Assembly: GCF_000247695.1 (NCBI RefSeq)
Contig: NW_004624743.1
Location: 7,958,566-8,022,565, forward strand
Length of the DNA stretch: 64,000 bases
Direction: 5' to 3'
Origin: Heterocephalus glaber
Lineage: Eukaryota > Chordata > Mammalia > Rodentia > Bathyergidae
How positions within the stretch are numbered: position 1 is the stretch's first letter; each line of letters begins with the position of its first letter. The position numbers and the translations under genes are program-made. The notes below the pieces were generated by a model, which made no database searches, had not been told where the DNA came from, and worked only from the letters and a program-made list of their open reading frames with translations. This document shows positions 30,061 to 64,000 of this stretch, piece by piece.

Positions 30061-30169
30061 GGTCTTCAAGTAAGTATTATCTGACCAATCTAAGCTAATT
30101 TCCATCTTATGTCTTATTTATCATAGCAAGTATAATTATCTTATGCTTTATTTTATTTGCTTCTTGCCT

Positions 30170-33387: not shown

Positions 33388-33540
33388 AGCTGGACATGGT
33401 GGCATACATCTGTAATCCCAGCACTTAGGAGGCTGAGGCAGGAGGATCACCATGAGTTCAAGGCCAGCCCAGGCTACATAGTGAGTTCAAGGCCAGCCTG
33501 AACTACATAGTGAGACCTAGTCTCGAAACCAAAACAAAAC
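33388..33540 (+). mobile_element. B1 SINE with internal duplication; last SINE in the window
   Basis: AGCTGGACATGGTGGCATAC begins the element. The GAGTTCAAGGCCAGCC... CTACATAGT segment occurs twice in tandem, a B1 internal duplication. No SINE was found to the right of it. Confidence 0.88.
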
Positions 33541-38944: not shown

Positions 38945-39690
38945 AACACTTCTTACCCCTAAAAGACAAAGATCTAAGAGATACAGGGATATTCTGGGTA
39001 ATATGTAAATTGCTCTTGTGGCCTAAATAATACAAAGTGTTTATTGTTGGTTTGCTTTTTGTTGTTGTTACATACAAACTTTATCTCAAGTAGTTCCTTT
39101 ACTATCTATTTACAGGTTTTCACCAATTATTAAGGTGATCAGCATCTAGTCATTTCCAATCCACACAAGCTATTAATGATGTAAGACACAAACATTTCAG
39201 CTTTGTCAAGTTTAAATTTAAAACTAAAGAAAATAACGCCATGAGCCAAGATGCAGTCAAATCCTCCTTGTTTTCCCAGGGCAAGTGACTATTAAAAGAA
39301 ACTCAGAACACAAGAAACCTGTCAGATAACTACTTAGTGACAGAGCCAGATGAATATTGTTAGGTAAGTGTTTTAATAACGCAGCATTTTTGTAGCATTT
39401 TCCCAGGATTATTTCTAATTGGCCTTGACGTAAAGTAGTCACAAACTGCTTTAAAACAGTGATCAGTTTGGAACTAAACTAGTAGAGCAAGCCTGTGACA
39501 GAAGTTGTTAATAACACGCTCCGAAATGTACCTGTGAAATTCTGGGCCTGACTTCTTTTGTAAGAGTAGAAGTGAAAGTCAATAGTCTTTGTAATGCAAA
39601 CAGACCAGCGCCACGAAAGCCAAGGTCAAGGCCTCCCAAAACCTCACCTGAGCTTCCTACAGACCTCGCCCACCCTCAGGTTAATAAAAT
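37200..39690. other. SINE-free AT-rich DNA with a GT repeat
   Basis: The GT repeat (about 38907-38941) is the only clear repeat. Several homeodomain-like cores are present but no block is as dense as at 36.0-36.6 kb. No gene is recognised. Confidence 0.5.
38907..38941. repeat. (GT)n microsatellite
   Basis: About seventeen GT units. Confidence 0.95.
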
Positions 39691-39699
39691 CAAAACTGT

Positions 39700-41290
39700 T
39701 CAGGCAGGTTGGCTGAGTCCCCTCCGTGCCACTAAAGCACAGCCCGCGGATTAGGGTGCGTGCACACCAGGAGGCCTGGGCCTCACCCACTGCTCGCGCC
39801 CACCCAGAAGCACACCGCCCGTCCGCGGCCTCCCAGGACGACTGACCGTCCCCTGAAGCGAGGCTCAGGGGGGCTTCTCCTGGGTCCGCCCTCTTTCCTA
39901 GCCTCACCCGAGGGCCGAGGAGCCGGACCTGCGCTGGCGAGGTGGATTTAGCCCGGGTAGAGTTAAGATGGTATCATTAGCCGCGCGCAGCGTGACTTCC
40001 CGCTAATCCTCTCTGCAACTTACAACAAGTTTAAATGTCCATGCATGATGTTATTAACTGGCTTTAGTAAGTGCTTAAGACCCAGCTTTCTTTTTAAAGT
40101 AATCTCCGAACAAGTTCTACTGTATCCATCCAACAAGGAGATTAATATTTCCAGCAAATCTGATGGGAGAGGAGATGCGCCCCCGAGCTCCTACTGGGCA
40201 GTAGGGGTGGAGGCGGATGCTGACCTGAAGGGCCCAGATCAGGGTGAGCTGCTGCTCCCCGGGCCCAGCACCCCACCGTGCCCATGCCCAGGGTTTCTCC
40301 AGGAGCATCGCATCCCTAGGTGTGTGTGTCGGAGGGGGGGGGGTCTTCATCAGTCACTCGAGGACACCCAGGGAAACGCCCCGGAGGTGGTGCCGGGGAT
40401 GCACGTCCAGGCGGGACTGCCTCGACACCACCCGGTCCGCGCACCCGCGGGCCAGGGCGGGGTCGGGAGGGCAGGGCCGCGGTCTCGGGTAAGGGGCTCA
40501 GAAACAGGCCGCTCCAAGACCCCGGAGCAGCCGAGTAGCCCCGCACCCCAGGCCACGGACAGCCTCCCGCGGACTCCCGGGGGCGCGCGGCGGGCGCGGG
40601 AACAAACACGTGCGCGCGAACCCGGGCGGCTCCCCCGTCCCGCCCCTCCCACCTTTCCGGGAGAGTGCGCGCCTGCGCACCAGCGCCGCGGCCCAGCAGC
40701 CGGTCTCCCGGGAAACACCAATCAGACGCTGGATTCCGGGCGAGGGCGGTGAGCGGGAGCAGCTGCGGGAGGACTCGGGCGGCGGGCGGGCGCTGGGAGG
40801 TGTCGTGCTGCTGCCCGGCGGCCGGGCCGAGCGGAGCCTGCGCCGCGGCCGCTACCGGGCCCCGCGCGTCCGCAGCCGGGCGCAGGGTCCGCCCACGCCC
40901 GGCTATTTTTAGATCTCCCGACCGCGTTGTGCGGGCGCTGAGCTAAAACCGAGTCAGACCGCCGAGCACGGGGACGGACTTCTCCCGGAATAAATATGGC
41001 TCACACCCCTTGTTTCCCGGAATCGAGTCGATCCTCCCGGCAGTTTTTAAATGCTCTGCCCCCCGTGGCCCGGCCGCGGGGTGCAGAGCGGAAAGCGCAG
41101 GCCCTACCTCCCGGGGGCCCGCGCCCGCCCGCCTCGGCACCCCACCGCCACTCGGCGCCCAGAATCAGTTCCGCCAAAGCCGAGCGAGCCCGCGGGGAGA
41201 TGGGCTCCGGAAGCAAACGGGAGCGGGGGTTTCTGCTCGCTCCTGTACCAGCTTCTGTGACTTGTGCTAAGCAACCCAGAACAGAAAAAA
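39700..41290. promoter_or_regulatory. CpG island, downstream side of mir-9-2
   Basis: GC content and CpG density rise abruptly about 5 kb to the left of the hairpin, flanked by AT-rich DNA. It contains G-runs, GC boxes and an MEF2 site. Several overlapping open frames on both strands (for example 40045-40752 plus) arise from the lack of stop codons in GC-rich DNA; none has recognisable domains. It may be a promoter or a Polycomb-bound island. Confidence 0.8.
40903..40912. promoter_or_regulatory. perfect MEF2 site in a CpG island
   Basis: CTATTTTTAG matches the MEF2 consensus exactly. It is followed about 80 bases later by an AT-rich GGAATAAATATGG stretch. It stands out because the surrounding island is strongly GC-rich. 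If synteny holds, MEF2C is the next gene beyond the right end of the window, so cross-regulation of this region by MEF2C is a testable inference. Confidence 0.5.
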
Positions 41291-44200
41291 CTGGGTAACA
41301 AAGCCATCCATTAAAACCCAGAGACACTGAAAAACTGCCTGACATGCCCACTACTGTCTGCAAGCACAATGGTAGAACGATTGACCCGTACTACAGATAG
41401 CTTTTACTCAGGAACTTTGATTCCAATTAGTTCTTAATCTAAAGGGACACCTTGTCCTAGTCGCTGAGCTCACCACCACCCTCAGCATCCGCCCCAATGC
41501 GAGAGATGATGCGGTACTGTACTTACTCTAGCAAAGGGAGGTTAAAGGTAAGTCACAGAAAGGGAAAGTGGGACAAGGGTATCTTAAGCCACAGTGATAG
41601 TTCCAGAGGGGTAGAGAACTACTGGGGATAAAACCTAGATAGTTACATGCACTTTCATGCATATTCTAGCCACAGTGGAAAATCAATCCTTTGGGTTCAT
41701 TTCTCCATTTTTAAAAAGCCCAAATTCTTAAAATATCTTCAAGTGTTTACGTATAGTCTGTGAATTGGAAGAGTGTTTCTGAACTTGAAATTCACTCATC
41801 CTTATCTCTTACTATTTAAATGGTTGCTTAATTTTCATAAAACTACACAAAATCAGATTCGAATTTCATATCTTTCCAAATAAAATCATTTTAATTTTAA
41901 AATAGACACAGAGAGCACCAATAGCACAAATTTTAGTGTTTAAGAAGACTTAAAGAAAAGCCACTTTGGAAAATATTCCATTTTGAATATAAATAATGCA
42001 TTTATCTCATTATTATGCATATTAGGGGTAACGAGCAGGGGACAGTCTGGTAAATATGCCCATTCACATTCTGCAAAGATGTTGCAGAAGTCTTCTTGTG
42101 TATTTTTTTAACCTCTCCAATTACTTTTTTTTTCTTTTGAATTTTTTCTGTGCTTAAGGTGTATTCCTTAAAATTTGATTATTGTGACTTTTCACTATTA
42201 ATTTTCTAGTATCACAAAGTAGGACAAGGAAAATAAGTTGGTTAAAGCTTTATGTTTACTTTTAAGTGTATCATTTTTATCATCCTTTTTATGAGTACTT
42301 CAAGAAAAGATTCTAGATGTCAAAACCTGCAGTTAACGTTCCAGTTTAGAAATACACAAAATAATACCTTTGACGTTGGCAACTCAAATGTATTATTCAG
42401 CAAAACAGCAATTACTCATTGTTTTGCACTTACATGTTAAGAACTATGCGACACTTGGTGACACGATAACAAAATTGCAAAGTCAATTATATTTAAAATA
42501 GACATCCTAATAAAACATACACAACCAACTCCTTTTCCTCTTCTTGAACTGTTTTGTTTCCTTTTTCTGACTGTTTACAGTCAAATAGAATGTTAACCCT
42601 AAAGATAACTGATTTATACACATGATGAGAGGGAAAAGAAAGGAAATGGAGGGGTGGAACATAAAAGGGGAAGCATATTTCTCAGGGCACTAGAATCTAC
42701 CCAGGGAGGTGCCAGAAGGCTCTTGTGTATTTTTGGAAACGTACGCCTATGGTGTTCTTTTCCAATGTCGATCAATCACAGTGCCAAACTTTGAGAGAGT
42801 AGTGTGCCCAAATTGAAAGCAAATTTAAGCTAGATCCCTACCAACAACTCTAAGCAGAACTTCAGCGATAAAACTCAAGTGGAGACCGTAGATATTTAAT
42901 AAGAGACGGTTTCAGGTAGAAGTAGGTGTTTGTTTTATTCTATTTTAATTGCACAAGGTGCATTTTTTGTAACTTGAACTTCCAAGTAATGAATCCCAGT
43001 CCTCCACTGAGCCTGCAGCCTGCAGCCTGCATTGACGTTCCCATCAGAAAATTAAAATGTTTGTCTGGATAAAATAACTTCTAATGAACTCCCTTATTTC
43101 TTTTTGTTGCTTTTTGTTGTTGTTGTATTTTCGGCAATGTAGCCCCCTCGCAATGATATTAGTTCTAGTGTGGGAAAATATTATAATTGAGATCTGGTAA
43201 GTTATTTGCAGACTTCAAGTTTTTCTTTACACTGTGCTGACATTTAGTACAGCCCTGGTGAGGAAAACAATACTACCATTCATAGCTCTAGACGTAGATT
43301 TCAATCGACTTAAGCGGGCACAATGAAACTTGGTCATTCACTGGTTACCCATATTGTGTTCTCAAATTTTCTCTCAGCAAAAGTATAATGACTCAGTATT
43401 GTATGGTTGCATAGACAAGGGCTAGGAACAAGAGACACTAGTTTTGTCTGACGGTGTGAGAAAGTCGTGAAGGGATCTTTTCTTCCAGATGGTGTTAAAT
43501 TCAGCTGCCTTTTTAACATTGGCCTTGCACGGCAATCTGCTGCTCCCTTCACAAAGACTGCGCTCCGTTCCCACTAGTTAACATGCCTACTCACGCAACC
43601 TGCAACTTCACTCCAACTGCTTTACAATGCAGTGGTATGCTAAATAAACTTGATCCGGTTCCTGCCAATGTTAAAAACTAGCTTTCAAAGAACTACTTAA
43701 CTGATATTTACACTTCTTTTGACTTAAAGGTACATGCCTTTGGAATATTTCAGATTTCAAAGAAATATCACCTTATTATAAGGTCATTGTAGAGATTATC
43801 TCAGCACCCCCCCAACCCCCAAGCTCAGATGCGGTACTCTCTTCAACACACACAAATAAAATAAAATGTCAGAAATTTGATGTGTAATCAAAAAGAGAAA
43901 AAAAGAAAAAACTGGGACATGTTGCAGCAAGAGCAAAAAATAAAATGAAAAGAACATTGAAATGTATTTTTATTGATTGATAAGTTATGCAACATTAGTA
44001 TGATACAAAGCAAGGTTGATATGACAATGGCAAACACGTAATTATAATATTGTTTATTTTCCTTAGATGTTATATTTCACATATTTACAGAAAAGACCAA
44101 GATGTAGGCAAAAAGCTTCAGTAATTTGACTCCATTGAGTGCTTTCAGTAAACAATAGGTTTCCCCAGCAAACATCTTATTGCCTTAATTGAACCTCCTT

Positions 44201-45495
44201 GAGAAAGAAAAACCACACACTTTGTAATGTAAATGTAATTGTAGTAGACAATGCTTCTAGGTAAATAGCACCCCTGGACACGAAGTAAATGAAAGAAATA
44301 CAGGCACTTAACAAGGAAAGGTTGTTTGCACAAACAGTGCTTCAAATGTAAATAAACAAGGGTCTTCACAATGGTCACCAGGGTAGTAAAACTTTGGCGC
44401 GTGTTCAGCAGCCAAACAGAGAATTTACCTTATTAAAGTCTCTCTGAGCTTCTAAGTGAAATTAACAGTGGTTTTACTGGCTTTTCCAGTCTGAAGTCTT
44501 ACCAGGAGTAGAAGCTACAAAGGGAAATGGACTGCCTTTGAAGAGTGGTGGGCTAGTTGGGAGTGTCAGTAATCTAGGCCCTGTGGATGGTCGTAGGCTG
44601 TTCCAGTCATTTTCTCATCGCAGTGGTTGTATTTATGTGTCAATGCCCATACAAATGTTGGCTTGGTGATGTGGCCCAATGTAAAGACTTTCAGGGGTTG
44701 CAGTGCGGACCTTCATAACCCCAAAGTGTATGCCAGGCGTAGTTATTTTCAAATTAAACAAAAATGGCCGTTTAGAGTGCATCCAGCTGGGACTACTCCA
44801 AAACGAGCTTTTCTCACCCTGCTACTGTAATCCACTCTCTCTGGGCTGATGACTTTACAGTTTCACTTCTAGTAGGCATCAATTAGCTTCCGGGCGCCTC
44901 GCTCCTCTGCGTGTCACATTAAGAGGTAAACAAGCTGATGAAGTCATAACTGAGACTGTGGCACCGAGCTGTGTACTGGAAAGTATACCCCAGCCAAAAC
45001 AAAAACTCGAAAGAAAGGGTGTTCACCAGGCCCCCGGCCAGACCAAGGATGTCTCCCAGGGCGGGCATGATGGGACTTTCTTGGAATCATTTTCTACCAG
45101 GTCTCCTTACATATTGAAAAATCTCAACCAAACTTCAGAAGCCAAACTTTATCCTGGCCAGCAGATTAAACAGCGGTTCAAAAAAAACACAAAAAAACAA
45201 AAAAACCAGCGAGCAGCAAGCAGACCAGTTGGCGCTGCCATTTGGGAGCCTGCAGATGTCTGTGGGTGGGAAATGCCTTTACCTTCTTAAGCGGTGGAGT
45301 TGAGTATGGTGTGTGCACTGGATGTTTTTTTCATACCCTACCCTCCAACAGGGCTGTCTGTCATAGGCTGCCGGCCGCCTTACCCCCTGCCCCCGAGCGT
45401 GGGAATCGGAGCGTCCCGCCGTTCACATCTCCTCGTTCCGTTTAGCGGAATCAATTAGGCAAGACAGACCCTGCGATTCCCCACCCCCTTTCCAT
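41291..45495. other. SINE-free DNA downstream of mir-9-2
   Basis: No transposon or protein gene is recognised. Two good minus-strand donor-like motifs (CCTG then GTAAGA at 44503, AGAAG then GTAAAG at 45283) lie downstream of the hairpin in the host direction. They could belong to further host exons, but matching acceptors were not firmly found. Confidence 0.45.
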
Positions 45496-45500
45496 TTTTG

Positions 45501-45566
45501 TCAGGTCTATATACGTCCTAATTATTTCAGTTTGGGATGCCAGAGCTGTTTCCTGGATAGACCTGA
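45501..45566. repeat. 10-base inverted repeat with 46-base loop
   Basis: TCAGGTCTAT at 45501-45510 and ATAGACCTGA at 45557-45566 are exact reverse complements. It lies about 800 bases past the hairpin in the host direction. It may be a chance match or a small RNA or DNA structure. Confidence 0.6.
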
Positions 45567-46376
45567 TCATCCTTAAACAAAAAGAGAGGAGGCGCCCACG
45601 TGGGTTCTGGCGTAAATGTCACTTTCATTTCCAATGCTAGGCGCAGAGTAAGACAGAACATTTTTTTAACACTTTGACAAGAGAGGAGGCGATCTCGTCT
45701 CCATCATGTCTTTCTGCTTCAGTAGCTTCCTCAAGGAAACCCTCTTGGAACAGAGAAGCATCTGTCCTTGTATTTTGAATAGAAGAATCAAAATCAGCCT
45801 TTGCTTTTTTTTTTTTTTTTTCATTTTCCCTGCTACTGCTGAGTCCTCAATAGTTATAAATTATTAACTTTCCAGGATAAACTTTTCTGAAAGTCTAATT
45901 TCATAGCATTTGACATTTAGCCCAAATACATTTAAAGTAGTTTCCAAGCACAATCTTCAAATTGGGGGGGAGGGGCCTCGGAGGGGAACTGCCCAAGCCT
46001 ACATAATCATGGAATCATTTTTAAACCAGTTGTCAGAAATCTCTACAACAGCTAAGAAGAAGAAAAAAATCCCTCGTATATAAACTTTGGCCTTAAAACA
46101 GAACACATTGTACATGCATCTTTACCCTGAGCACTATACAATTCTTTACAGCCCTAACAACCCTCCCCCAAACCCTGGCACTTTTCAATTTCAGCATCTT
46201 GTGTCGCTTAATTTCCTTGTATCCCACCTTTACTCTTATAAGGAAAAAGCAAAAAACAAAACAAAAAACAAAAACAAAGTTAGATTCAATAAGTATTCCT
46301 GACCTTTCCGGTTTTTACTGTCTCTTGGTTGTAGTCTTTCATTCTCACGCTGCCCGGCGACCTTGAAGGAGTTTTT

Positions 46377-46398
46377 ACTTTCGGTTATCTAGCTTTAT
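46377..46398 (-). ncRNA. miR-9-3p: mature miR-9-3p (miR-9*)
   Basis: This is the 22-base 3p strand, read on the minus strand and beginning ATAAAGCTAGATAACC. It pairs with the 5p strand with the expected offset. It is identical to the known miR-9-3p, whose best-known target is CoREST. Confidence 0.97.
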
Positions 46399-46412
46399 GA
46401 AGACCAATACAC

Positions 46413-46435
46413 TCATACAGCTAGATAACCAAAGA
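46413..46435 (-). ncRNA. miR-9-5p: mature miR-9-5p
   Basis: This is the 23-base mature 5p strand, read on the minus strand. Its seed is CTTTGGT (bases 2-8), from the 5' arm of the hairpin. It is the dominant neural product and matches the invariant vertebrate miR-9. Confidence 0.97.
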
Positions 46436-46899
46436 TAACAACTCGCTTCCCTCATGCACCTCTGTCTTCCTCCTACCAGACTCCGGAGCTGCCACCGTGA
46501 GTAGTCAGTTATCCAGGACACTTGCCCTTCTTCAGATTCCTCCTTTTATGTAAATATGACCTGGTTTCTGTTTGTATATGTGGGGCTAAAACATCCAAAT
46601 GAGATCTGTGGCCTTCAGAGTTTATTCCGAACTTTTTCCCCCTTTCAGCAAGTAATCTCCGGCAGTGTTAGCCAACAATTCATCTATTAATATCAGAAAA
46701 TAAAACCAGCTATTAAGGTGCAGCAAGCTGTTAGGAGTGAGCAGCAGCAGCCATCCCTTCTGAGGCCTCTATTTGCATTGTAAATTGCTTCGTTCTCACG
46801 CACGACTCTTTAGCCTTCCTCTATAGAGATGTAAAAAGCCAACGGCAATTTCCAGCGCAGGTTAAGGAGGAAGGGGGGGGGGGAAATCCCGTTCTATAG

Positions 46900-47099: not shown

Positions 47100-50000
47100 A
47101 GGAGAAAAGGGCCATCATTGGAGGGGCTTTCACTGCCAAATTGTGGACCAGCCTGGCAAGGTCAAAGGCTCCAGACCGCGGGAGACCAAGGTAATGATGA
47201 TGTCATGAGAAATCTCAAGTACATGGTTATTGATATGCATCAGTGATCAGCCAACTGCCCCACGCCTGCCACCGAGCAGCGACAGAAGCAGCAGGAGCAG
47301 CCAAGGCAGCAGCATTGCAAGGAGCCCTATTTTCTCAATCAACATTTCTTCGCTAGCACTACCGACCGCTCCTGGAAAAGCAACCCGCGGCCTTTTACCT
47401 CCTCCGTGCTAGTGTAGATCGTTCTAATATCAAAGACTGGAAGAAATTTCTCTCTAAGGACAGATAAAAGCATTTCAGGTCTGGGGAACGTCTTTGCCTG
47501 CATTTCTCTTCTGGCAGATTGCATAGGCAGACAGATGGAAGGCACTTTGCTATTGCTTAAAGCAGGGCCTGGCTTTCTGGGGCTGGGAATCAGATCTGTA
47601 TTACGCAGTGAGTCGATGTGTGATTACACTGACAGTTTGCTCTGGTGGTGTGTTTTTAATGGCTTCACAGCACAGTCATGTTTTGTATCTATGTACCATG
47701 GCGAAAGGGCAGCATATTTTGTTCTGTAAGTTCAAACCAAATGCCCTAAGCAGATGTATTTCTTCCTGGATTTTTTTTTTAAAATGACTGCATATATAGG
47801 GTGTGTGTGTTAGAATGCAGCACAGGTAAACACTGAGGCAATCATTTCTAATGTTGTATACAACTCTGCTGGAATAAAAATGCTGAACCTTTGTCTATTG
47901 TCTTAACATCTATTTTCATACAGAAGGATAAAATACACTAGTCTTATGAAACTATTTTAAAAAGTCTCATTATCTCCTGAAAAATGCAGATAAAACACCT
48001 GGAAGTTAAGAGCGTGCCGTACCCGACCTTCCCTCCCCACCCCCATTTTTCTCCTATCTCCAGGGGAATGATATTTTATTAATTGCTTATTCTCATTCCT
48101 TTTCTAAGAACTTTTTCAAAATGCAAATATTATCACTTCAAGGAGTCCTTTCTTCCTCTCCTTCCCAATGTGTTATCTATGTCTATTGTACCTATATTAC
48201 ATATAGTTCTAGCATTCAGATTTTTCTCAGCAAAATATCTTAGGTAGTCTACATAAGATGCTTACCCATCATGGGTGAACTTTATGAGCTGTTTTTCAAA
48301 ATTACAAGTTATATTTAGTGATGTTACCATTCTTGAAAATGTATGCTACAAAAGAATATAGTAAGTCTTACTATTCACTGCACACATCACTAGTTTATCA
48401 CAATACTCTTCTTTCTATAGGTTGACTATTTTCCCCAATGACTAAAACACTTTCATAGTTAACACACACTCTGTCACTAATTCAGTAATTCATTCATTTA
48501 AGGCATGAGTATGAACATGCTTATCTAATTACATACAAAGCACACATATGTAATCCCTGTAGAAAAGACTGACAAGTCAAGAAAACCAGAATTGGTAGGA
48601 AAAGCCCCCAATGACGAGTTTAAACAGCAACATCACACCAATGAAAGATAAGCTTTAGTAATATAGATGCCAACTTTCCTTAGATTTTAAACAATTTATT
48701 TACTTTTGTGGTGAGCATTCTTGCACTGATTTTTTTAGAAAAGACTAACCCATGGAAATTGCTTATCTATGTTTCTTATCGAACTATGGAACAAGAAGTA
48801 AGATCAGCAATGGCTGCCTTAGGTTGTACATAAAGTGGGCCTGCAAACTCCACACTGATGCAGGGAGCCACACTCATGGAATTATGTAGTGAACTATCTG
48901 GTGATAACATCTGAGAAAAAATTCAAAACATCACCAAGGCACAGGCCATTTTTGATTCTGTAAGACTCTAATGAGCTCTGAAGTATTAGAAGGCCAAAGA
49001 GCAGTGTGCTTTGCTTACAAGACCTAGAGGTGAATCATTAGTGATCTGGCATGCATGTGATCAAATGTATTCAATTCCTTAAGCCAAAGCCCAAGAAAGT
49101 CCAGATTTTTAGAATGTCTCTTTGCTTTATATGTACTTGGGAGAGGATACTGACAGTAGAGAGAGAACTGTGATGTATATATGTCTGTGTATATTAACTC
49201 CATATTTATGTAAATTTTCAAATTATTATGGTTCTATTCCACACTCGACAATTAAATGCATTTTTAGAATTCAAGAATATTTGAGATGGTCCTACAATTA
49301 GAAACTAAAGATACTGTCTTAAAACAGCATCTTCTTAAGGCAACACCACACAAATAACTTACTCTAGGACTGGCTTCAAACCTGGCACACATGCCATCAT
49401 GAGAGCACCAGTAAGTGGAATGAACCCACATGGTGACTATGGGCAGTCTGTTCATTAGTCACATAGCCAATCAAATATTTTATTTCTCTGTCGTCTCTCA
49501 GGATATGAAAAATTAAAACATACAGAGCAAAGCTTAACAGTGAGCACCTGTTTATTCCAAGTATTGCCAAGGTTTATATCTTAATTTATCATATACATAT
49601 CTTTTAAGGATTATGTTATTGTGTAGAATGTGAGACAAGTTAAAACAATTGTGCAGCTCTGCATATGCCTACCAATGTCTGTGGAACATTAAGAGCAATT
49701 CTTTGTACCTACATGTTCTCAAATCACATATTTTTGCTTTCAGAAAGCTATTTAGCTGAGCGACAGAATGCTGCCTTAGAATTTGCATACTGAAGGACAC
49801 ACTGAATTCAAATGGCTTTCCTGCTCATTCTCTAAAAAATTCCTATTAATAGCTAGTAGATTAGGACGTGATTGTCATGCTTGTTTTCTAATCTTTTTAT
49901 AGGTCTCCAGATGGATAAAACATGAATGGAAACATCCTGGTTTGCTTGGGAATAATAAGGTCTGGTGAAGTTAAAAGTAAAAAGTTATGATTTTCTACAT

Positions 50001-50740
50001 ATTTGGATCAGAAATATATGATTCCATAAATTCAAATCCACCAGGTTTGCTACCAATATTTAGAACATCTCCAAACCCTATTCACATTACTGCAGAGTCC
50101 ATAAAGAATTGGCCTACCACCAAATTCCCTTTTTAATATTTAGTTGATGTGATTCCCATGTATGTTAACCACAGTCCACTAACACAGTCAAGACAACCAT
50201 TTCCTCTATGAAAGCCACTTAATTTATAGCAACTGTACAGTGCAGGTGAGGTACTTGACTAGCATACTTTCTAATAAAAGTATCCTATTATCTCTTCTGT
50301 GTCCCAAATTTCCTTTTTATAGGCAGTTGTAGGTTATGCTGGTGTTATGTTTGATATATATTAGACACAAAGACTCCTTAAAAGGCAAAATACTGGACAT
50401 ACAGAAACTTAAAATTTTCTGGAATGATATCTACTCCATTGGGAGATACACAACACACTGCAGGCCCAGCATCCAGTAAATAATACTCGACTGTGATTGT
50501 ACAGCACTTTGATTTCATAAAACGTAAATTATGAAATTACCTTTGGTTGGATGGACAGTCTATTCATTTTATGCTTCTGTGCAGTCTCATCTGAAAAATA
50601 GTCAAGAAAACAAATGATCACAGTTTATATATATACATATATACACAAAATCATATCTAGGTATGGCTTCATTTAAAGTATTGCAATTACTAGGAATCCT
50701 TAAAATGCTAAGAGGCTCCCTAAACCCCAGTTGAGCATTT
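47100..50740. other. SINE-free DNA upstream of mir-9-2
   Basis: The part near 47190-47260 has a CRE-like TGATGTCA and a TATGCATCAGTGATCA motif and looks regulatory. A possible minus-strand donor (GGAG then GTAAAA) follows 47399. The rest is AT-rich with no gene or transposon recognised. Confidence 0.45.
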
Positions 50741-50830: not shown

Positions 50831-51059
50831 TGGAGAGGCTTGGAAAATTAATTTTTCTTTCTCCTTTTCTTTTATTTTTAGCTTGCAAAGGAGAGGGACT
50901 TAAGAAACATTAGGGGTTTGAACCTTGTAACCTGCCATACAAAAGAGGAGTGAGAGTCCTTCCACGTAAGGATTTTAGGAACAAAGTCTTATTTTCTAAA
51001 TGTTTAAGAGACTGGATTTGCAGGCCTTTCAAACAATGGGAATCCCTGGATAAATGTCT

Positions 51060-51260
51060 AATCCATTAGAAAGATGCAAATAGTTTACTGTAAGGCCACA
51101 GCACGGTGAGATGTGCATTCATGTCTATGGCTCCTGATTGGCTCGCTCCTCCAGTAAATCAATGAATAATGTAAAACCTGATTGCTGTAAAGTGGTGGAT
51201 TTTTTATTCCCTTCCCCCATCCCTCCACGATCCAATATTCAGGAAGTCTTACACTCCTGA
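51060..51260. promoter_or_regulatory. candidate conserved element with CCAAT box
   Basis: GATTGG (reverse CCAAT) near 51137 is set among AATCAATGAATAATG and CCTGATTGCTG motifs, directly beside the island at 51.4 kb. Regulatory use is inference. Confidence 0.35.
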
Positions 51261-51389
51261 AAATAGGTTGCTTTTCTTTTATGATTTTTTATGCTTCTTG
51301 TTATTATGGACTGGTGGGGTGGGGCTACTGCTTTTGCAAAATGAAAGTACTGCACGGGTTCAATTATGCTGACTATGGTAGCTCGTCCC

Positions 51390-52460
51390 GAGACAGCGCC
51401 CTAATTACTGCTGCCAAGGCGGAGGAGGAAGGTGGCCTGGCAGGCAGCTGCGGGCACCAAGACAGGGCGGAGTGCATGTGGGCCCCGGCCGTGGCCGTGA
51501 CTTGACAGGCCTTCGGTCTAACTTCTGACCAGGTCCACGGCGGCTCTGACCCCGCCGGACGGTCCCCATTCAGACGCTGCGGGCACATTTGCAAGAGAAA
51601 ACGCCTCAGACCCTAACACAAATGTATCGTCGCGTGGGTTCCCCAAGGCCTGGGCTCCCGCGGTGAAGTCCAGGCCACCGAAAGGTCTCGCCTTCCCCGG
51701 CCGGGTCTGGGCTCCGAGCAGACCGCTAAGCCCAGGTTCTGCTCCGACCCCAGCAGCTCCTGGAGCTGACCCGGCCCAAGTCCCAGTAACTCACCGCGAA
51801 GGGTGCCTGTAGACGAAGCTAAACTTGGGATAACCCTGCACAACAGCCTCTCGCCTCTCCAAATCCAAAAGGCAAAGAAAAGGGAAGCGGAGACCCACCA
51901 GCTCTACTTAGATCCCTTACAGAAGTTTCTAACAGGATCCACTCAGACCCTCGCTTCCTTGGGACGAAATTGCAACTTTGAGAGGTTAAAGGAGGTGAAT
52001 TATTCAAAATGCGAATCCGGAAACCAGGGACGCAAAAGACCACTGTATTTAGCCGTAGATTTAAGAAGGAAAAGTCCCACCACCAACAACACAAAACCCT
52101 ATACGAAATTCCCTTCTCCAAAGCGAAATTTTCCTGGCCTCTTTCTGCGACTGGGGGATCCGGCCGGTGGATAATTAATAGTCCAGGCTCAGACAACTCC
52201 CGAGATCAACAGGTTTGGCATCCGAGGCACACAATCAATTAGCTGTAGCAAAGCCCGGACTGGCGCTCGGAGCGGCCCGCGGTGGGCTCTGAGGCGAGGC
52301 GCAGAGCGCGGGGCGCGGCGGGCAGTGCGGGCCGCCCAGATACTCACTTGATCTCCCAGCGCCAGGCAGTGCAGCCCCCCAAATCCAGCAGGCCAGGAAT
52401 CGAGGCGCTCCAACCAGAAGAGACAAGATCCAGTCCCAGAGCGGCGGCAGCACACACAGG
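51390..52460. promoter_or_regulatory. moderate CpG island, proximal host promoter candidate
   Basis: Two CpG-rich stretches (about 51390-51800 and 52200-52460) flank a less GC-rich middle. The minus-strand donor after 52348 lies within it. The open frames over it on both strands have no recognisable product. Confidence 0.55.
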
Positions 52461-52700
52461 ATCCTTTAGGCGTCTCCAAAAACAAAAACAAAAACAAAAA
52501 AAAACAAAACAAAAAAAACAAAAAATTTTTTCTGATCATTCCTCTCCTTCGCACATTTAAAACTGCCGCTCAATTCCACATGGTGATTCTTGCTTGATTG
52601 CGTCTAAAATAGTTTAAACGGGTCTTCCCCTGTGGGAAGAGAGAGAGCAGGGCGCAAAAGACCGAGGAGGAAAAAAAGCCAACTTTCCCCCCCCACGCGG
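52348..52700 (-). ncRNA. candidate first exon of the host transcript, proximal promoter
   Basis: A minus-strand donor (GAGATCAA then GTGAGTATC) ends a possible exon at 52348 in a moderately CpG-rich segment. An ATTGG (reverse CCAAT) motif lies near 52827-52832, upstream on this strand. The start is unknown and 52700 is a guess. It could also be an internal exon or an unused site. Confidence 0.35.
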
Positions 52701-53518
52701 GCACTTGCTCCCTAAGGCTCGCAGTGGAGAGTGAAGCGCTCTGTGCAAGGCTCAGCAAGTTTTTGGGGGGGCTGTCCAAGGTCTAGTCCAGCCCCCTCTG
52801 CCGAGGAGGACGTGCTCTGAAACTCAACCAATTTCCCCACTGCTTTTGTTACTGATGAACTGAAGCCCTATTGTTCATCCATTGCCACGGTCTTTTTCAG
52901 TCCCCACACTACGTTCTGCGTTGCCAGAGATAATGAATTTACAGCCAAACCTCTTAGTCCCCTCCTGACAGACGGAACAAATTAGAAATGTCTCGTCTGG
53001 AGCAGGGCAATGGCTACATTTTCCTATTGTAGGACGCAAAGCACACATTTCTTTGCAAACTTCTTTTGCCTTCTCTACCTTTTATTTTCCTCTCCCCTTT
53101 TCTTTTTCTCTTTTTTTCTCCTCTCCAGCCGCCCCCCCCGCCAATAACTTGGCTTCTCAAGACACACGATTAAAAGAATCAGCCTGCCTTGCCTTGCCAA
53201 TGCATTATTTTATGGAACTTGTGGGCCTTTCTACCTTCTCTTCCTTCTTGGCACTTCTTTCTTTTTTAAGGACTCCCTTTGCAATTGTATTTACAAACTT
53301 ACAGAATGACCTTTCGACTTGCAGACTTTCTTTTTTTTTAAAGAAAGGTCTCTTAGTTCAAGTCCCCCTTCCTCTCACCCACCCCTTTATGTGCTTAAAT
53401 GTTTGGCTAAAGACAAGCCATACATTATAAGGATTTTTATTCTCTAAACTCCAGTGCTATTCAAAAGGTACCAGGGACGCGCCATAGGGGTTATCTATTT
53501 GAGGAGGAAGAAAAAGCG

Positions 53519-53579
53519 TGTGTGCGCGCGTGTGTGTGTGTGCGTGTGTGTGCGTGTGCGTGTGTGTGTGTGCGTGTGT

Positions 53580-53615
<36 letters not shown>

Positions 53616-53617
53616 TT
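53519..53617. repeat. GT/GTGTGC microsatellite
   Basis: An interrupted GTGTGCG array changes into pure GT at its right end. It creates the Cys/Val/Arg start of several open frames. Confidence 0.95.
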
Positions 53618-53734
53618 CCAGGGAGAGACACAGCTGAGGGCGGGAGGAGGTGGGGGTGCGCGGGGAGGGAAGGGCCGGGGTCTCTGGAAGGTGGGCTTCT
53701 GCAGCGCGAGCTGGAGGCTGTCGGGGTGCAGCTC

Positions 53735-53753
53735 GGGGGGGGGGGGGGGGGGG
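53735..53753 (+). repeat. 19-base G run
   Basis: The run is an uninterrupted G homopolymer in a CpG island. Its length may be an assembly estimate and is likely polymorphic. Confidence 0.9.
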
Positions 53754-54775
53754 CGGTGCAGGAATCCTCGCGCCGAGCCTGCGCGTCCCCGGGCCTGGCC
53801 GCGCGCCCCCGGCCGGCCGCTGCCCGCGCGCGGGGGTCTGCGCGCTCAGGAGGCTCTTCCGAGCCTGCGCGCGTGCGCCTGGGGACAAGGGGAAGCGCGG
53901 GGCCGGCGCTGGGAGATGTACAAATTCAGACGAGCCGCCCGTCTGTAAACGCAGCCCGCGGGGAGCCGGGAGGCGGGGAGGAGCGCGGCGGCCCCGCTTT
54001 CCCGCCAAGTGCAGCCGGAGGACAGACAGCCATGCGTGTCCTTGGCGCCAGGGTCCCCGCCCATCCGCCGCGCGCGCCCGCCACCCGCCCCACGCACGCG
54101 CACACGCACACGCACACGCGCCCGTCATCGGCGTGGGACCCGGTGGCCGCTGGCATGGCAGGAAAACAAAGCTGCGGCTGCGAGGTGCAGCGCGGAAAAC
54201 CACGGCCCAGGCGGCCCGGCGCAGGGCCGGGGGACCAGCGTGGCGGCCCCGGGCGCCCCTGGCTTTCCTGCGCCGAGAGGCGAGGGGCGGATCGCCGGCC
54301 GCCCGGGAGGGGCGAGTGTGCACGGAGGTGCCGGTCCCCGCCCGGTGCGGGCACGCACACGCCGGCCCGGCGCAAAGCCCCCCTGCACCCCGCGATAGGG
54401 GACCCAGGCCGAACCCGGCACGGCTGGAGCCTCCGCTCCCTTTCCACAGACAATGCAGTCGGAAGGCTGGCCTGTTCCAGCAAGCCTTTCCCGGCCTCCT
54501 CTCTCAGCGGGAAAAACTCGAACCCCTGCATACGAGCCTTGGCCTACAGGGCTCCAAAGATAAGCCCCAGACCCGATCTCGGAAAGATGCTGATCTCTCC
54601 TCTCACTCGCAGCGCCAGCCTCGGGGCTCCTCAGCCCGAGCACCTACTAGCGCGCGCGCACACACTCACACGGCACTCCCATCACATTAAAACGCGCGCT
54701 CCCGGCACTGTTGTTCACGAAGCCGACGCGCATAATGAGTGCACAGGTAAATAGGTACAGGGGAGCAGCCCTCAC

Positions 54776-55200
54776 CTGTCGGAAGCACAATTTGCCTCTT
54801 CCTACTGGGAATATGTGGAGCTTATCGTGTTTTAGCAATGATATGCTGTTCTTTGTGGTTTTCCCCTCCCCTTCTTGCAGAGAGAAGCCCAAAGGGCAGG
54901 GGGGGGAATCAAAACCAAAAACGAAAACCTGTTCCATTGTCAGTCTTCTTTCTGATAAGCTACCGAGCAGTGTTCTACAAGACTTAGGGGTGCGTTCGGT
55001 ATGTTAGCTGTTGTTTCCGTTTTGTGGTTTTGGGGTGTGACTTCCTGGGGGAAGCAAAAGAACTTGTATTTGGTGCGGCTGGAGGCCAGGACGACAATCC
55101 GCTCGCGGGGCGGGCTGCAGAAGGCGCGCCTTGTGCTTCCCCGGGGCTGCACCGGCGCCTGCACCTCGCCTGGGCCGGCCGGCTGCACCAGCTCGCGCAG
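54776..55200 (-). ncRNA. candidate first exon of the host transcript, middle promoter
   Basis: A strong minus-strand 5' splice site (CGACAG then GTGAGGGC) ends an exon at 54776, in the left part of a CpG island. The upstream side (right) carries a perfect CRE at 55284-55291 and an octamer at 55359-55366, as expected for a signal-responsive neural promoter. The transcription start is not defined; 55200 is an estimate between the CRE and the donor. Published work on human miR-9-2, as I recall it, reported control by REST and CREB, which fits the CRE. I did not find a convincing canonical REST element here. Confidence 0.45.
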
Positions 55201-55283
55201 ACTGGCGGGCTCCGCGGCGGCCGCTCCGTGTTTTCCCCCATCCCGGCTTCACGTTCAAGGTTTAGCTGCGAGGTCACGTCCAT

Positions 55284-55291
55284 TGACGTCA
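55284..55291. promoter_or_regulatory. full palindromic cAMP response element
   Basis: TGACGTCA is the perfect 8-base CREB/ATF site. A second CRE-like half, TCACGTCC, lies about ten bases to the left. The pair sits in a CpG island upstream of the minus-strand donor at 54776, which suits CREB control of a mir-9-2 host promoter. Confidence 0.7.
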
Positions 55292-55358
55292 GCTCCCTGT
55301 CTCCCTCTACGTCCGGCTACATTTACATACATCAAGGAAATTAGGGCATTAAAAAAAT

Positions 55359-55366
55359 ATGCAAAT
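55359..55366. promoter_or_regulatory. octamer site ATGCAAAT
   Basis: This is a perfect POU-factor octamer, 67 bases from the CRE and in AT-rich sequence at the island edge. Neural POU proteins such as BRN2 bind this motif; use at this site is inference. Confidence 0.55.
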
Positions 55367-55616
55367 CCTGAGCGGAGAGGAGCGGGAGCATTCTTGGCGC
55401 GATCGCCTTTTATTGAAGGTTTTAATTAAAGAGGCCAGTTGGCGAGCCCCTGAAACAACCGCCAAAACCCCCTAAAAGAGAAAAATAAACGCTGTAGCCT
55501 TCGGGAACAGTTGTTTCTGCTGCTGTTCTGTGGGCGGCTGAGGACCGCCGGCTGCCGGGCTCGGAGAAGAACAGGTTAGAGAGGCAGCTCAGCCCATGCA
55601 GAATCAGGGCTCCGCG

Positions 55617-55728
55617 GCGCCTCCATTCTTCCCTCCTCTTCCTCCTGCTCCTCCTGCTCCTCCTCCTCTTCCTCCTCCTCCTCCTCCCCCTCCTCCTCCC
55701 GTTCCCTTCCTCCTCCTCTTCCTGCTCC
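55617..55728. repeat. (CTC)n / (CCT)n tract
   Basis: A pyrimidine-only triplet tract at the right flank of the middle island. It could form triplex DNA. Confidence 0.9.
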
Positions 55729-57231
55729 CCACTACTGTTGGTTCCAGAGTGTATTATTTTAAATACTGATGCATATGTAAAGATATATTTGCATTTTTAA
55801 TTCTTGAAAATTTCAGGTTTTATCGCTTTATTGATTTCCCTCCCCCCTTTTGGCTATTTTATTATATTGTCTCTGTTGTCCTTTTCTTTTTTTCTTTTTT
55901 TTTTTTTGGCGAGTGTCTGCTACTGTCTTTTTCGCTCGATAATATACACAATTGTCTCCCTGCTTCTGTTTATTTAAGGTTACAAATATGCACATCTGCA
56001 TGTATGTAGTGCTAGCTATATAACATCTTAGTTTGGTCATAAAAGAAAAGACACATTTTTTCCCCCTTCCCTGACATAACCCTCCATTGACTAATACGGC
56101 CCATCGTTCAAGGTTCAAAGTTGGATTGCTTAATTAACTTCATAATACCAGAAACACAGTTGGAGGCTAGTGCATTTGAGATACTGCAGGTATAAGGGAA
56201 GTGATTCCAAAGATTTCTAAGGAATTTTTGTGCTGATTAGCCGAGAGATGCAGCATTCATTGTCTATTGCTTTTTAGCATTTCTTATTGCAAAATATATA
56301 TATATTTTAAAATGTGTAGACACAGCAATCGACAGCCTTCTGCGAGGAGGACATTTTCAACCATGTTGTATGTGGTACTGTATCTGCTGCGTTCAAAATG
56401 TACTGAGTCTCATTTTATCTTAATATGGGAGGAAATACATTATCTGGATTGAAATCCTCTCTTAATTCCTGGCTTTGAAATGAAAACAAATACACAAACA
56501 AAACAGTTGACTATATTAAGCCAGCCGAGGTGCGCTAAAATATACAGGCCTTGAGTTGGATTTCAAGCAACGGTGATTCTTTTTTTTTTTTTTTTTTTTT
56601 TCTTTAATAGGATTGGGTTTTCCTTCCTGGCAATTTAGTTATTCAGCACGAAAAGGACATATAGAGAGATGCATAGATATCTGTATCTATTCTACTTTTA
56701 AAATATCTCCAAAGCTACCATTTTAAAAGCAGTTGCTCCATAATTGCTTAGCCACAAAGAACAGAAAATAGGCACACATGCAGCTTATTCGACTAAACAA
56801 GTCCAAGGACAGGCACAGGTAATTAGTTTTCACCCGAAGGACTTACCTGCAGGAATACCCGGCAAGACAGCCCACCCATGGCTTTCGTGTCCTAATGTTC
56901 ATGTGTGCCTCCCCCTTTCAAACCCACTGCCGCGTGCCCTCTCTTCCCAGGCTCTTCAGCATCCATTTTTAGCACCCTTAAATCTTATGGCATTTCCAGC
57001 CTTACCTCCAGCTGTAGATGTTCCAAGCCTACACCAAAGTGCTCATATGATATGCTACCCAATAAAAAGTGGTCAGATGGCTACACGTAAAACATTAAAA
57101 AATGGAAACACTCATCCTCCAGGCTCGCCCTTACCTTGCCATATATAGCAAGATTACGCTTCCTAAAGTACATTTTCAGCACGCTTTGTGAATAATTGCA
57201 GGATTCCGCAACTGGTCGAAGACGCCTGTTT

Positions 57232-57259
57232 GGGGTGGGGGTGGGGGTGGGGGTGGGGG
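57232..57259 (+). repeat. GGGGGT repeat, strong G-quadruplex motif
   Basis: Five G tracts of four or five bases, separated by single T residues, fit a very stable G-quadruplex on the plus strand. It lies at the left edge of a CpG island. Confidence 0.9.
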
Positions 57260-57755
57260 ACCTGGCTGAGTGAAATGGGCCACATCTCCCTCGGAGTTCG
57301 GCTGCGGGGAAATCGTGCGTGGCTGTCCATTCCTGCCTGGACTCACGCATAGCTGGGGCGCCGGTGCGTGAGGTCGGATGGCAGTAGCACGAGTGGGTGC
57401 GTGTACGGCTGTCTGGGCACGTATGTGTGTCCAGATGCGAGCGCGCGCGCGCGCGCGGTGTGCCAAGGGACGCGGAGAGGCACACCTCTCGTCTCTGATC
57501 TCTCCGTAATCTCCTTTTCCGTTTCTAATCTCCCTTATTGGCGCATGGTAGGAACCCGAAGCGTGCACGAGGTCCCCGGCTTCGCCGAGCGCGCTATGGC
57601 TTACCCCGGGGGCCCTCAGCTCGCTGGCTCGCCGGCCGGGTGTCGAGGCAGAGGGTGGGGAGCGCCGCTGCCGCCGCCGCCGCGGGTCCAGGCGCTCTGT
57701 CCCAGCCCGGCCGCCCAGCGCGTGGTGCCGGAGCCCCCTCCCACCCGCCGTCACC

Positions 57756-57810
57756 CTCTCCTCTGCTCTCCTCTCCTCTCCTCTCCTCTCCTCTCCTCTC
57801 CTCTCCTCCC
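57756..57810. repeat. (CTCTC)n tract
   Basis: A pentanucleotide pyrimidine repeat inside a CpG island; the minus-strand Glu-Arg run in the open frame comes from it. Confidence 0.93.
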
Positions 57811-58929
57811 TCCTCTCCGCGCCTCCCCCTCCCCCGTCCCGCATTACCATAAGGACGCCGAGTCCCTGCGAATCACAGCAGCAGCGGGCGATGTTTGAAT
57901 AAGCCCCGCAACCCCGCGCAGACCCCAACTCCTCCGCAGGCCGTGCGCCCTGCGCCCAGGGCCACCGCTTAGGCTGGGCACGGGGCAGCGACCGACACCT
58001 CCCCAAAGCGCCCTGCGCGCGCGCGGGGGACCGAGTCAGACAGGGGTGCTGGGCCTCCCACTCGCTACTTTTCCATTAACTTGATGGATAGAATCAGACA
58101 ATAAATTAGAGGAGAGAGGGAGAAAGAGGAGGAGAAGACACTGCGGGAGAGGAAAGGGGGAGACGCGCTGGAGAGGGGAGATAGGGGCAAGGTCGGCGAG
58201 GCAGGGAGCCCGAAGGGTCGAGGGAAAGAGAGTAACGCCGGCCAGGACGAGGTGGCGAAACCGGCGGAGGGGAGACATACCCAAGTATCTGAACTAGGCT
58301 TTTCAAGCTAAAACATCTCAGCTCTCTGAACTTCACAACCCCAAGTAGAAGTGCCCTTACGCCCGTCTTCCACTGGTTATTATGTCGTCTCGATTGGAAA
58401 TGATGATTTAGGGTTGTGTAACAGACACGGGACTTTACAGAAAGGAGCTAGTTTTTATGCAACTTAGCAAAGGGCCATGGCAAGACGATGCTGGCCACCT
58501 CACCTTAAAAATCAAGGCTTGCCTTAAGCACTCAGCCCCGTGGCCAGCCCTGCACTGCAAGTCACGGCGCTGCGAAGGCGGCCCAGGGGCCAGGCCACAG
58601 CCTATCCCGGTACACTCTGGACTTGGAATGAGATCTTGGCTTTCCTTTGTTTCGTTTTTTTCCTCTTCACAAATTGATTACTTGTTACCAAAAATTGAGA
58701 CAGTGTGGTTTTTTAAAAAGCACTGCAAAATTGTGACTCATGATAGGGTTTCAAACGTTAATTTAAATGCACAGCCGGTTCCATTTTGCATGCTAGCTCG
58801 TTCAGTAACAGGTTTCGCGTTTAGTGCATTCAGGGCCATTTTCCCTCTCCCATCTTCTCACCAGAGCTTTGATTCCTTCGTACAGAACAATCCGAATCAT
58901 CATAAAATCTCCAGTCCCCTGTAGGGTGT

Positions 58930-59880
58930 ACCCACTGTAAATGTCCCCGGGATCCATAAGCCGAGCGCCGTCCTTTTGCATCGCGCACACAAAAAGACGC
59001 CTCTGATTAATAATCTCTCACGCGGCACCCTGAGGCCGAGGCAGGCAGCCCCAGGACGCCAGGGAGGGCGCGGAATTCTCAGGGCCTGGCGTGCGACACA
59101 GATTCCAGAGACTTGCGTGCGACCGGCGAGGTTCCCAAGAGGATTACTACTTGGGGAAAGACAGCCACATCCCAAATATTGACTCCTTTCTTAGGCCGGG
59201 GGAGGGGGCGACAATGCCGATTACCGTGAATTTCTGCTTGCGCGAGCTGGTATGTAGCTTATGCATGCGTGAGTGCAGGCCCAGGTTGCGTGCTTTTCCT
59301 TCCTTCCTTCCTCCCTCCCTCTCTTCCTTCCTCCCTTCCTTTCTCCATTCCTTCCTGATTACTGAAATCAATCCATTCTTTCTGTGACTAGCTCCCACGA
59401 AGCTAGGATTTCTACCTCTGACTTCCTGATGCGCTCAGCACCCCACGCCGGGGCTCCGGGGCAGAAAGGGCCTAGAGCTGGAAAAGCTTAAGCAGCCCTT
59501 CCGTCGGGGCCTCGAGCTGCGCCCCAGCCAATCCATCTCCCCTTTCTGTGCCCGAAGGAGCTCCCTTGAGCTGACCACTGGCCGCCGCGGTCCCGGCCAG
59601 GTGAGCGAAGGCTCGGGTCCGGGAAGGGGCAGAGGTGCAAAGGACCCCCGCCCTCGAGCTCCGGGGGTGGGGGTGGGGGCGGGCGGGCGCCCAGGATGAA
59701 TGGCGCTAGGGGCCCTTGCGAGGCTCCCCGCTCCCGCCGGCGAGGAAACAGCGACACCTACTGGCCACGCGGGCGCCGCGCCTGAGCCGTCGGGGCGTCC
59801 CGGAGCTGCAGTCCCTGCCTCCGTGCGGCCTCCGGAGGCGGTGAGAACCTGAGACCAGGACCCTCGGGAGCTCACTAGGT
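58930..59880. promoter_or_regulatory. GC-rich segment with CpG clusters
   Basis: Two CpG-rich stretches (about 58930-59240 and 59430-59850) surround a TTCC/CTCC repeat. They may be part of one long regulatory domain with the neighbouring islands. No gene structure was recognised. Confidence 0.5.
59296..59357. repeat. TTCC/CTCC tract
   Basis: A pyrimidine tetranucleotide tract between two CpG-rich stretches. Confidence 0.9.
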
Positions 59881-59899
59881 TTGCTTGCCCCGGGGAGGG

Positions 59900-62230
59900 C
59901 AGAGCCACAGCTTCTAGAGTCCTCTAAGGGACCGCACCAAGACCGTGCGCATGCATGCACAACATGAACCCCCCCCCCCATGAACGAGGGTCCATGCTTG
60001 GGGTGACGGCACCCGAAGACGCCCTTGATCTCGGTCCCTTGGTTTTATGAGACGCAGGCGGAGGTGGAACTCTGATGGGCTTGAGTTCGCCCCCAGGCCT
60101 CTACACCACCACCCCAACCTCAGCACTGGGGGCAAAGCTGTCTGCAAATGCCGGGGGCACCCTCTGCGATCTCCCCGCCGGAGGTTAAGATTTGGACTCT
60201 TCCTTAAGAATTAAGGCTTAAAAAACTTAATCTTGAGGTAAAGGCACATTTGGAGTGCTGCGGATATTTTTGAGAGCTAACAGTATACATAGTGTTTAAG
60301 GCATGTATGTCAAAGGATATGTATGTCAACTACACTTTGATAAATGTGTGTGCGTATGTATGACATGTATATATCCTATGCCTTGGGGGTTAGTTCCTGT
60401 TGGGAAAGACGAGCGTGCCAGGGATCGGCAAGGCCTGACAAAGGATGAGGATGGAAAAGCCAAGTCGTGTATTCCAAAGTTACTTTGTCTCATGAGTCCT
60501 TTCTGTAAAAACAATTCTTTTATAGCCAACTCGTATGAAAAGAAAATGTGATATCGACGGTCCTAGCAGCAGATGGAGAAGGGGGAACTCAGCTGCCCCT
60601 CACCCCTAAATCCATCCTTTCCCTGTGCCAACTTCTGAGGCTAAGGCTCCACATGGGCCTCAGAAACCTGACTGGGTGTGACTCATACCAGTTTGCTCAA
60701 ATATCAAAATATGTTCCATCCCCTCAAACGATTGGGGTATTTGAACCAGTCTGCAGCCTAGAGATTTCCATTTAAAATGGCCATTAAAAAGCACCAGAAT
60801 TAAAAACATAAAAACTTTTCACTCAGAGTTCAAGAGTTTATCTTGGAAATTATTTTCCTTGGCTTTAGAGACTGATTGCAACTAGGATCTGAAGTGTTTT
60901 GAACGAGCTTTGTTGGGGCTGATTTTTGTCTTCCCTCTCAGCAACTGCAAAGGTTTGCTAATTCTGTTTTATTTAAATGAAGTTGGAAGCTCTTAATGTC
61001 CTTAAACCAGGAGTTTTAGATAAATTATCTTCCCCTTTTATTATTTTTTTAAAAGTACCTAACTGCTCAAGAAATCTGCTCTTCAACTCAGTTTTGTATG
61101 TATTTTTTCCTGTATTTTAAAAAACTTTCCTGCAGTCAATCAAATATGTTTTAATAATGGATGGATTCACTTGTACAATGCATGAATAAAGCCATATTAT
61201 TAGTAATAGATAAAATAGGGCACTCTAATGGCATCTATCTCAATGAATCCTGCACCCTACTGCATATCAAAGTCAACTTTCTCCAAGAAAAATGAAACCT
61301 TCATAGGAAAGGAAAATGATTGCAGAAAAACTAAATTACCCTGGACACGCAACAAGCACCTTTCATCCAAAGGGGTTTTTGGTATTAAAAGCCCCTTGAA
61401 AAACACAGGGGTTAATTTTTTTTCCTTTCCTGTTAGGTTTTTAGGATGTATCTTCATCTGTGACTCCAAAATCTTAGCTAGAATGGGTTCTTATTTGATT
61501 GTCTGCGATTTCACTCTAAAAGTTGTCGATTTGGCATTTGACATTAAAGAATAGAAAAAAATAGAATTTAGGTGTCAAAAAATGGTGGAATTTCTTTGCG
61601 TACTAATCACTCCCCAAATATTAACATAGTATTAAGGCCTAGTTGAGGGCATGTTTCTTGAATTAGAACAGAAAATTAGATCAGTAAAATTGCTCCATAT
61701 TTCACAAGAAATATGAATATATAATCTATATATTAAAACAGAATATAAGTAGGCTCTATGTGGGTATTATAATTATGCATACGAAGGGGGGGAACAAGGC
61801 TTTCCAGTCTGTTTAGGAGTCCTTTGATATGTTTCCCTTTTGATTTCTCTTACATATTGAGAGAACCATAGAACTAGACCAGGCTGAACTGTCCTTACCC
61901 GGGCTTTGTCACACCTAGCTCCTGTGGGCTCCCTGGGGAGAGTGTGCACACTTCCTCCAATGCCTGTTGAGTTGAGTTGGAAGGAAGGTAGGGTGCAGGG
62001 ACAGGGATATGGATCTGAAGGGCTCATCCCTGTACGTGAGGAGGAGAAGGATACATTTGGGGCCTGCGAAGCCAGGCTGGGTGGCTCTCTGGGGAGGGAG
62101 CGTGGAGCCGCAGGCCGATCCCTGGGGGCTCTTGGGGAGAGGACAGGAGCCTCCGGTGCACCGCACCGCCTTTCAGTTTTCCGGCGTCAGCCCGGGCTAT
62201 GACATTTGGCGCCAGGCACTGGAGCTCCAA
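59900..62230. other. SINE-free DNA between islands
   Basis: AT-rich from 60180 to 61880, with moderate GC on both sides. A C run lies near 59969. No gene, RNA or transposon is recognised. Confidence 0.45.
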
Positions 62231-62261
62231 CGACACCTGTGTGCGCCTCTGTGGAGACAGA

Positions 62262-62322
62262 TGTGTGTGCGTGCGTGTGTGTGTGTGTGCGTGTGTGTGT
62301 GTGAGTGCGCGCGTGTGTGAAG
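62262..62322. repeat. GT/GTGC microsatellite
   Basis: An interrupted GT array at the left foot of the right-edge island. Confidence 0.93.
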
Positions 62323-63506
62323 AGAAGGCATTTCATCAAACATGCATTTGAAAACTATTGGCCCTCACATCCTACCGCGTCCTCACCGGGACCAGACACC
62401 GAGGAGGTCACCCCCGAGGTCAAGTTCACACGCGGATGGCGGCAGCGCTACTGCTTTCCATAACAGGAACGTGGCTTCTTTAGTGTCCCTGGCTCTTTAG
62501 GGTACTTCTCTGGAGTGGGGCGAGGCTCACGCTTCCCCCTCCCCCCTCCTGGATCCGGACAAACAAAACCATTCTACACCTTGAGCCATCTGCTCCAGGT
62601 GCAACGGCGGCGGGCAGGGGCAGACCCAACCGCACTCCAGTCTCTCCTAGGTCGCCACCGCGCTCCAGCAAACAAATGAATCCTGTTTCGCCACTAGGGT
62701 GCCGAGGTGGATGCTGGATGCTGGCCCCCGCCTTTGGCAACGCTCAGCGCTTAGAGACCAGAGCCAGCTGACAACACACGGAACACACGCGCGCGCGCAC
62801 ACGCAGAAAACGCCCAGCCGCCCCCCCCCCCGCCCCGCGCTCGCTCTCCGTGCACACGGCGGGCGCGCACGCAGTCTTCTCACACTTAAGAACCCCTGCG
62901 ACTCCCGCGAATCCCCGGGAACTTCTGCCGGCCTCAGGCTCCGCACACAGCCCCCCGGGTGTGTGTGTGCGCGTGCGGGAGGGGGGCGCGTGGGTGTGCG
63001 TGTGTGTTTAAAACGCTTATTGGTAGGTCAGCAGCAGCTGATCAGACATGGTAATCCAATAATCTTTTGGACTACATACAATTTTTCGTTAAAGTCATTT
63101 TTTTAAGGAAAAGGAGAAAGCTATCAATTTTTTGCCAAGCTGAGGTTCCCGGTTTAGGATCCAGGGGACGGCGAAGCTGCGCGACCCCCACCTGGCCAAA
63201 CTTTCCCTTTGCGCGGCGGCGCGCGGCCACAGTCGGCGGAGGGCAGGGGCCCTCAGCGCGCGGGAGGGAAGCGGGGCTCCGCGGGCGGCCTCCGTGGCCG
63301 CGGGTTCGGAACCCGGCTGGGCGCAAGGTGCCCGGCGTGAGCGAGGTCCGCGCTTCCGGGAGCGGAGCATCCTCTCGGGCCGGACCCGCGGGCTGGAGTC
63401 AACCCCACCGCACCCCAACCCGGGTTCACGATTGCTCCAGCGCGGGGCTCTGGGCTCTGGGCTGGACCCTCAGGTGCGGAGCAAACGCCGGGGGCAGCGT
63501 ACTCAC

Positions 63507-63900: not shown

Positions 63901-64000
63901 CCCGAGCCTCTCGCTCCCCACCCGCGGCAGCGCGACGCCCCCAGCGTCCCGGGGGAGCGGTGCGTCAGCTCGGGCGGGGCGCTACAAAAGCCCGCGCTGC

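Follow-up and report, generated by a model that had tools for sequence, protein, structure and literature searches.

A minus-strand mir-9-2 hairpin within the LINC00461/Visc locus of a 64-kb rodent window

During an Rfam search of the whole 64 kb of DNA under study (hereafter, the window) we found two matches at the gathering score, both to mir-9 (RF00237, cut-off 58.6 bits) and lying on opposite strands of positions 46369-46444. The minus-strand match scored 84.6 bits (E-value 2.4e-15), placing the element in RF00237, and the 87 nt of minus strand at 46364-46450 folded into one long stem-loop of -39.0 kcal/mol (z -8.55), a stability that none of 200 dinucleotide shuffles reached. Both mature arms were intact in this stable hairpin; each had a single exact occurrence in the window, on the minus strand, using what are presumed to be the miRBase arm sequences. 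The features of the hairpin are:

46364..46450, minus strand: mir-9-2 stem-loop (Rfam RF00237, fold, and 87/87 identity to the reference mir-9-2)
46413..46435, minus strand: miR-9-5p mature arm, exact (string match to the mature sequence)
46377..46398, minus strand: miR-9-3p mature arm, exact (string match to the mature sequence)
46399..46412, minus strand: inter-arm loop region; it and the basal stem set 9-2 apart from 9-1 and 9-3 in alignments to the reference paralogues

As a test of the locus that is independent of the hairpin, we mapped published oligonucleotides for the host lncRNA (LINC00461 / C130071C03Rik / Visc) onto the window at a threshold of two mismatches or fewer. Ten of the 34 locus oligos matched (5/14, 5/18 and 0/2 in the three sets), versus 0 of 39 controls (0/28, 0/9 and 0/2), the best control having 4 mismatches. 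The controls represented other genes, MEF2C, TMEM161B, an lncRNA more than 200 kb distant, and vector; they included the Gapdh pair of PMC4585502 and excluded the two GAPDH primers of PMC5663582 Table 1 and some other genes' primers. The eight matching oligos that do not come from opossum were also run against 40 order-1 random windows, where none matched at 2 mismatches. The matching oligos define the following features of the host:

45545..45756, minus strand: amplicon of the LINC00461 in-situ probe, on the downstream side of the miRNA (human primers of PMC5663582, both exact and convergent)
45462..45620, minus strand: host lncRNA qPCR amplicon (human primers of PMC5663582, 1 and 2 mismatches)
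45254..45275, minus strand: mouse C130071C03Rik qPCR forward primer site (PMC5663582, 1 mismatch; reverse primer unmatched)
62568..63062, minus strand: Visc-2 / Visc-1 first-exon region (mouse, opossum and human primers of PMC4585502)

Within the in-situ amplicon, the two human LINC00461 primers lie at 45735-45756 (minus) and 45545-45567 (plus), each with 0 mismatches. In the first-exon region, which lies ~16.6 kb upstream of the miRNA (62.6-63.1 kb), the mouse Visc-2 probe primers map to 63038-63057 (minus) and 62568-62587 (plus) with 2 mismatches each, a degenerate opossum forward primer is exact at 63035-63062 (minus), the other opossum primer falls in the Visc-2 region with 2 mismatches, and the human AK125167 forward primer, also with 2 mismatches, lies inside the same interval. 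All ten sites are in the published order and sense, with every forward primer on the minus strand and every reverse primer on the plus strand, and the host therefore reads from right to left. The hairpin thus sits in the LINC00461/Visc locus on the strand of its host. The sequence-only reading had deduced this direction from the hairpin, and ten oligos of which none touches the hairpin now bear it out; its further claim that every other reading of the window hangs on the hairpin was too strong, as the host primers locate the locus without it. The arrangement is like that of the known LINC00461 / C130071C03Rik / Visc host, with the miRNA in the 3' part and Visc-2 and the first exon upstream in a CpG-rich stretch; the difference is that 24 of the 34 locus primers are mismatched or missing here.

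Global alignment of the hairpin gave a score of 87 (identity 87/87) against mir-9-2 and scores of 55 and 46 against mir-9-1 and mir-9-3, from which it differs in the loop and basal stem. The three reference hairpins are presumed to be the miRBase forms; of their strings, that of 9-1 alone was located in the papers searched. The identification as mir-9-2 with both mature arms and loop intact, made earlier from the letters alone, is upheld by these alignments to the reference hairpins, by the exact arms and by the RF00237 score. The known mir-9-2 (RF00237; human 5q14.3, mouse chromosome 13) has the same hairpin, with both arms and the loop alike, and lies on the same strand relative to its host; we saw no difference in the hairpin. 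That the hairpin might instead be mir-9-1 or mir-9-3, or a retrocopy at another genomic site, had to be weighed since the three mir-9 genes give identical mature products, as stated in PMC10730111, and the arms alone therefore cannot discriminate among them; the paralogue call also uses presumed reference hairpins. However, the loop and basal stem match the reference 9-2 alone, and the LINC00461/Visc oligo sites fall at 45.3-45.8 kb and at 62.6-63.1 kb, 17 kb apart, a spacing that a processed retrocopy of the spliced transcript would have lost. We consider this alternative extremely improbable.

The plus-strand match at 46369-46444 is the reverse complement of the minus-strand hairpin and, at 67.3 bits, also exceeds the 58.6-bit cut-off; its fold reached -35.2 kcal/mol (z -9.56). 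As the plus strand passes the RF00237 threshold too, an automatic pipeline might annotate a pair of miRNA genes at this site. Score and fold would be compatible with an antisense miRNA gene in which the plus strand is the functional hairpin, but a strong hairpin also folds as its reverse complement, the minus strand scores 17.3 bits higher, the exact mature arms are confined to that strand, and all ten host oligos that matched have minus sense, leaving the plus-strand gene an exceedingly small chance. A few bidirectional miRNA loci exist, and a related possibility is that the developing brain transcribes both strands, so that miR-9 from the sense strand would be accompanied by an antisense miRNA whose seeds differ. 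Support for transcription of both strands, which we regard as very unlikely, is limited to the fold and the Rfam score of the plus strand. The account of the mouse locus in PMC4585502 has AK036048, opposite Visc-2, as the sole antisense lncRNA reported there, undetectable by in-situ hybridisation, and neither AK036048 primer matched in the window. In the review PMC3834235, 'opposite strand' refers to arm choice in fly, and a limited literature search, which is no proof of absence, met no antisense miR-9.

At two mismatches or fewer, 24 of the 34 locus oligos had no match in the 64-kb window. These included both mouse C130071C03Rik in-situ primers and the mouse C130071C03Rik qPCR reverse primer, the human pairs of PMC8027536, PMC8790831 and PMC7077533, all eight Visc-1 and Visc-3 primers (4 to 7 mismatches, or no site), both AK036048 primers, the human AK125167 reverse primer, and both Visc-2 genomic genotyping primers; the Ngn1 ChIP primers for the miR-9-2 promoter (PMC4577824) likewise failed to map in the window (0/2). 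Species divergence and primers that span exon junctions may explain these misses. Some weaker sites, none of them counted as proof, were seen outside this limit. The Visc-3 mouse probe primers have convergent sites at 49752-50106 (5 mismatches each), which fall in the interval separating the miRNA from the first-exon region, and a site for the Visc-1 qPCR forward primer is at 52357-52377 (4 mismatches); these are in the expected order and sense. The Visc-1 in-situ forward primer has a weak site on the plus strand at 45421-45440 (4 mismatches, the first 13 bases being identical), in the opposite sense to the host, which may reflect a swapped primer pair in print or a chance match.

Regulatory and transcript-end signals were scanned around the hairpin with simple MEF2, RE1 and CRE patterns, among others, and two features were listed:

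48309..48318, strand not assigned: MEF2 consensus match, 1873 bases upstream of the 5p arm
43969..44058, minus strand: two AATAAA signals, a candidate 3' end of the host (43.5-46.4 kb scanned)

Human miR-9-2 has been reported to be under REST and CREB control, but the sites reported there were not recovered with these simple patterns. At the thresholds used, no RE1 (REST) site was found in 40-64 kb, and a single raw CRE pattern match was found in 44-64 kb, at 55284. MEF2-like matches occur at 48309, 49843 and 50872 in 46.4-52.5 kb, again as raw pattern matches. The first of these may be equivalent to the reported rat site, judging from its similar distance in PMC3979806. CATATG boxes occur at two places upstream, at distances of 2.1 and 3.2 kb, and no exact TGACGTCA was found nearer than 8.8 kb upstream of the miRNA. 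For a human neuroblastoma line, a proximal start ~410 bases from the stem-loop is given (Laneve et al. 2010, as cited in PMC4585502).

Patchy CpG-rich DNA at 51001-60500 and 62001-64000, with lower bins such as 55501-57000, covers the host 5' part and the Visc-2 region. A separate CpG-rich block at 39501-41500 (500-base bins reaching a GC of 0.74 and a CpG observed/expected of 1.06) lies ~5 kb past the miRNA on the host 3' side, outside the stretch of matching primers. This block could represent a further promoter, perhaps that of an antisense transcript.

Searches with SINE consensus sequences found 23 places in the window when the best match per place was taken at an E-value of 1e-4 or less (7 B1, 14 ID, 2 Alu left part and 0 B2, lesser B2 matches beneath a better match being unlisted). 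The presence of B1 and ID elements agrees with the call of a rodent source made from the letters, and B1 plus ID with B2 never the best match fits a non-muroid rodent, given the general distribution of B1, ID and B2 among rodents. The failing mouse primers and the mismatched human primers make a mouse or human source unlikely. A 29-base internal repeat is present at two B1 places (2561-2622 and 33453-33514), and at 29876-30062 an ID-like piece of SINE is duplicated in tandem (91 bases per copy, 94% matches). No Pfam family was found at an E-value of 0.01 in the 10 frames scanned of 52 stop-to-stop frames of at least 110 aa, and there were no tRNA genes in the window.

As the locus is orthologous to that of mouse and human, the window probably lies between TMEM161B and MEF2C, presumably with TMEM161B to the left and MEF2C to the right. 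Neither gene was seen in the 64-kb window, where 0 of 8 MEF2C and TMEM161B primers matched. PMC5663582 and PMC4585502 place the mouse and human locus between these two genes, and PMC5663582 describes LINC00461 there as containing miR-9-2. For guinea pig, PMC4585502 names a BAC assembly that covers this locus, DP001051.

We conclude, with a probability of about 0.98, that the element is the orthologue of mammalian mir-9-2, an already known gene, on the minus strand in the terminal part of its host LINC00461 (mouse C130071C03Rik, Visc-1). The window itself shows its sequence and strand, its arms and fold, and the host neighbourhood around it. By analogy with the known orthologues, from which transcription, processing and function would carry over, the host would be transcribed from right to left from a start on the right side, Microprocessor and Dicer would cut the hairpin to yield miR-9-5p and miR-9-3p, and these would repress their targets, both in neural progenitors and in neurons. 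Control by MEF2C via upstream sites, as described in PMC3979806, may also be carried over from the orthologues.

The finding is of a known gene in a known place and adds nothing to knowledge of miR-9. What it does is fix the identity of the window as a long noncoding locus that is expressed in the developing brain of mouse and human, and give a frame in which to read the rest of it, with the 5' region of the host occupying the right end, its 3' part at ~44-46 kb, and repeat-rich DNA leftward.
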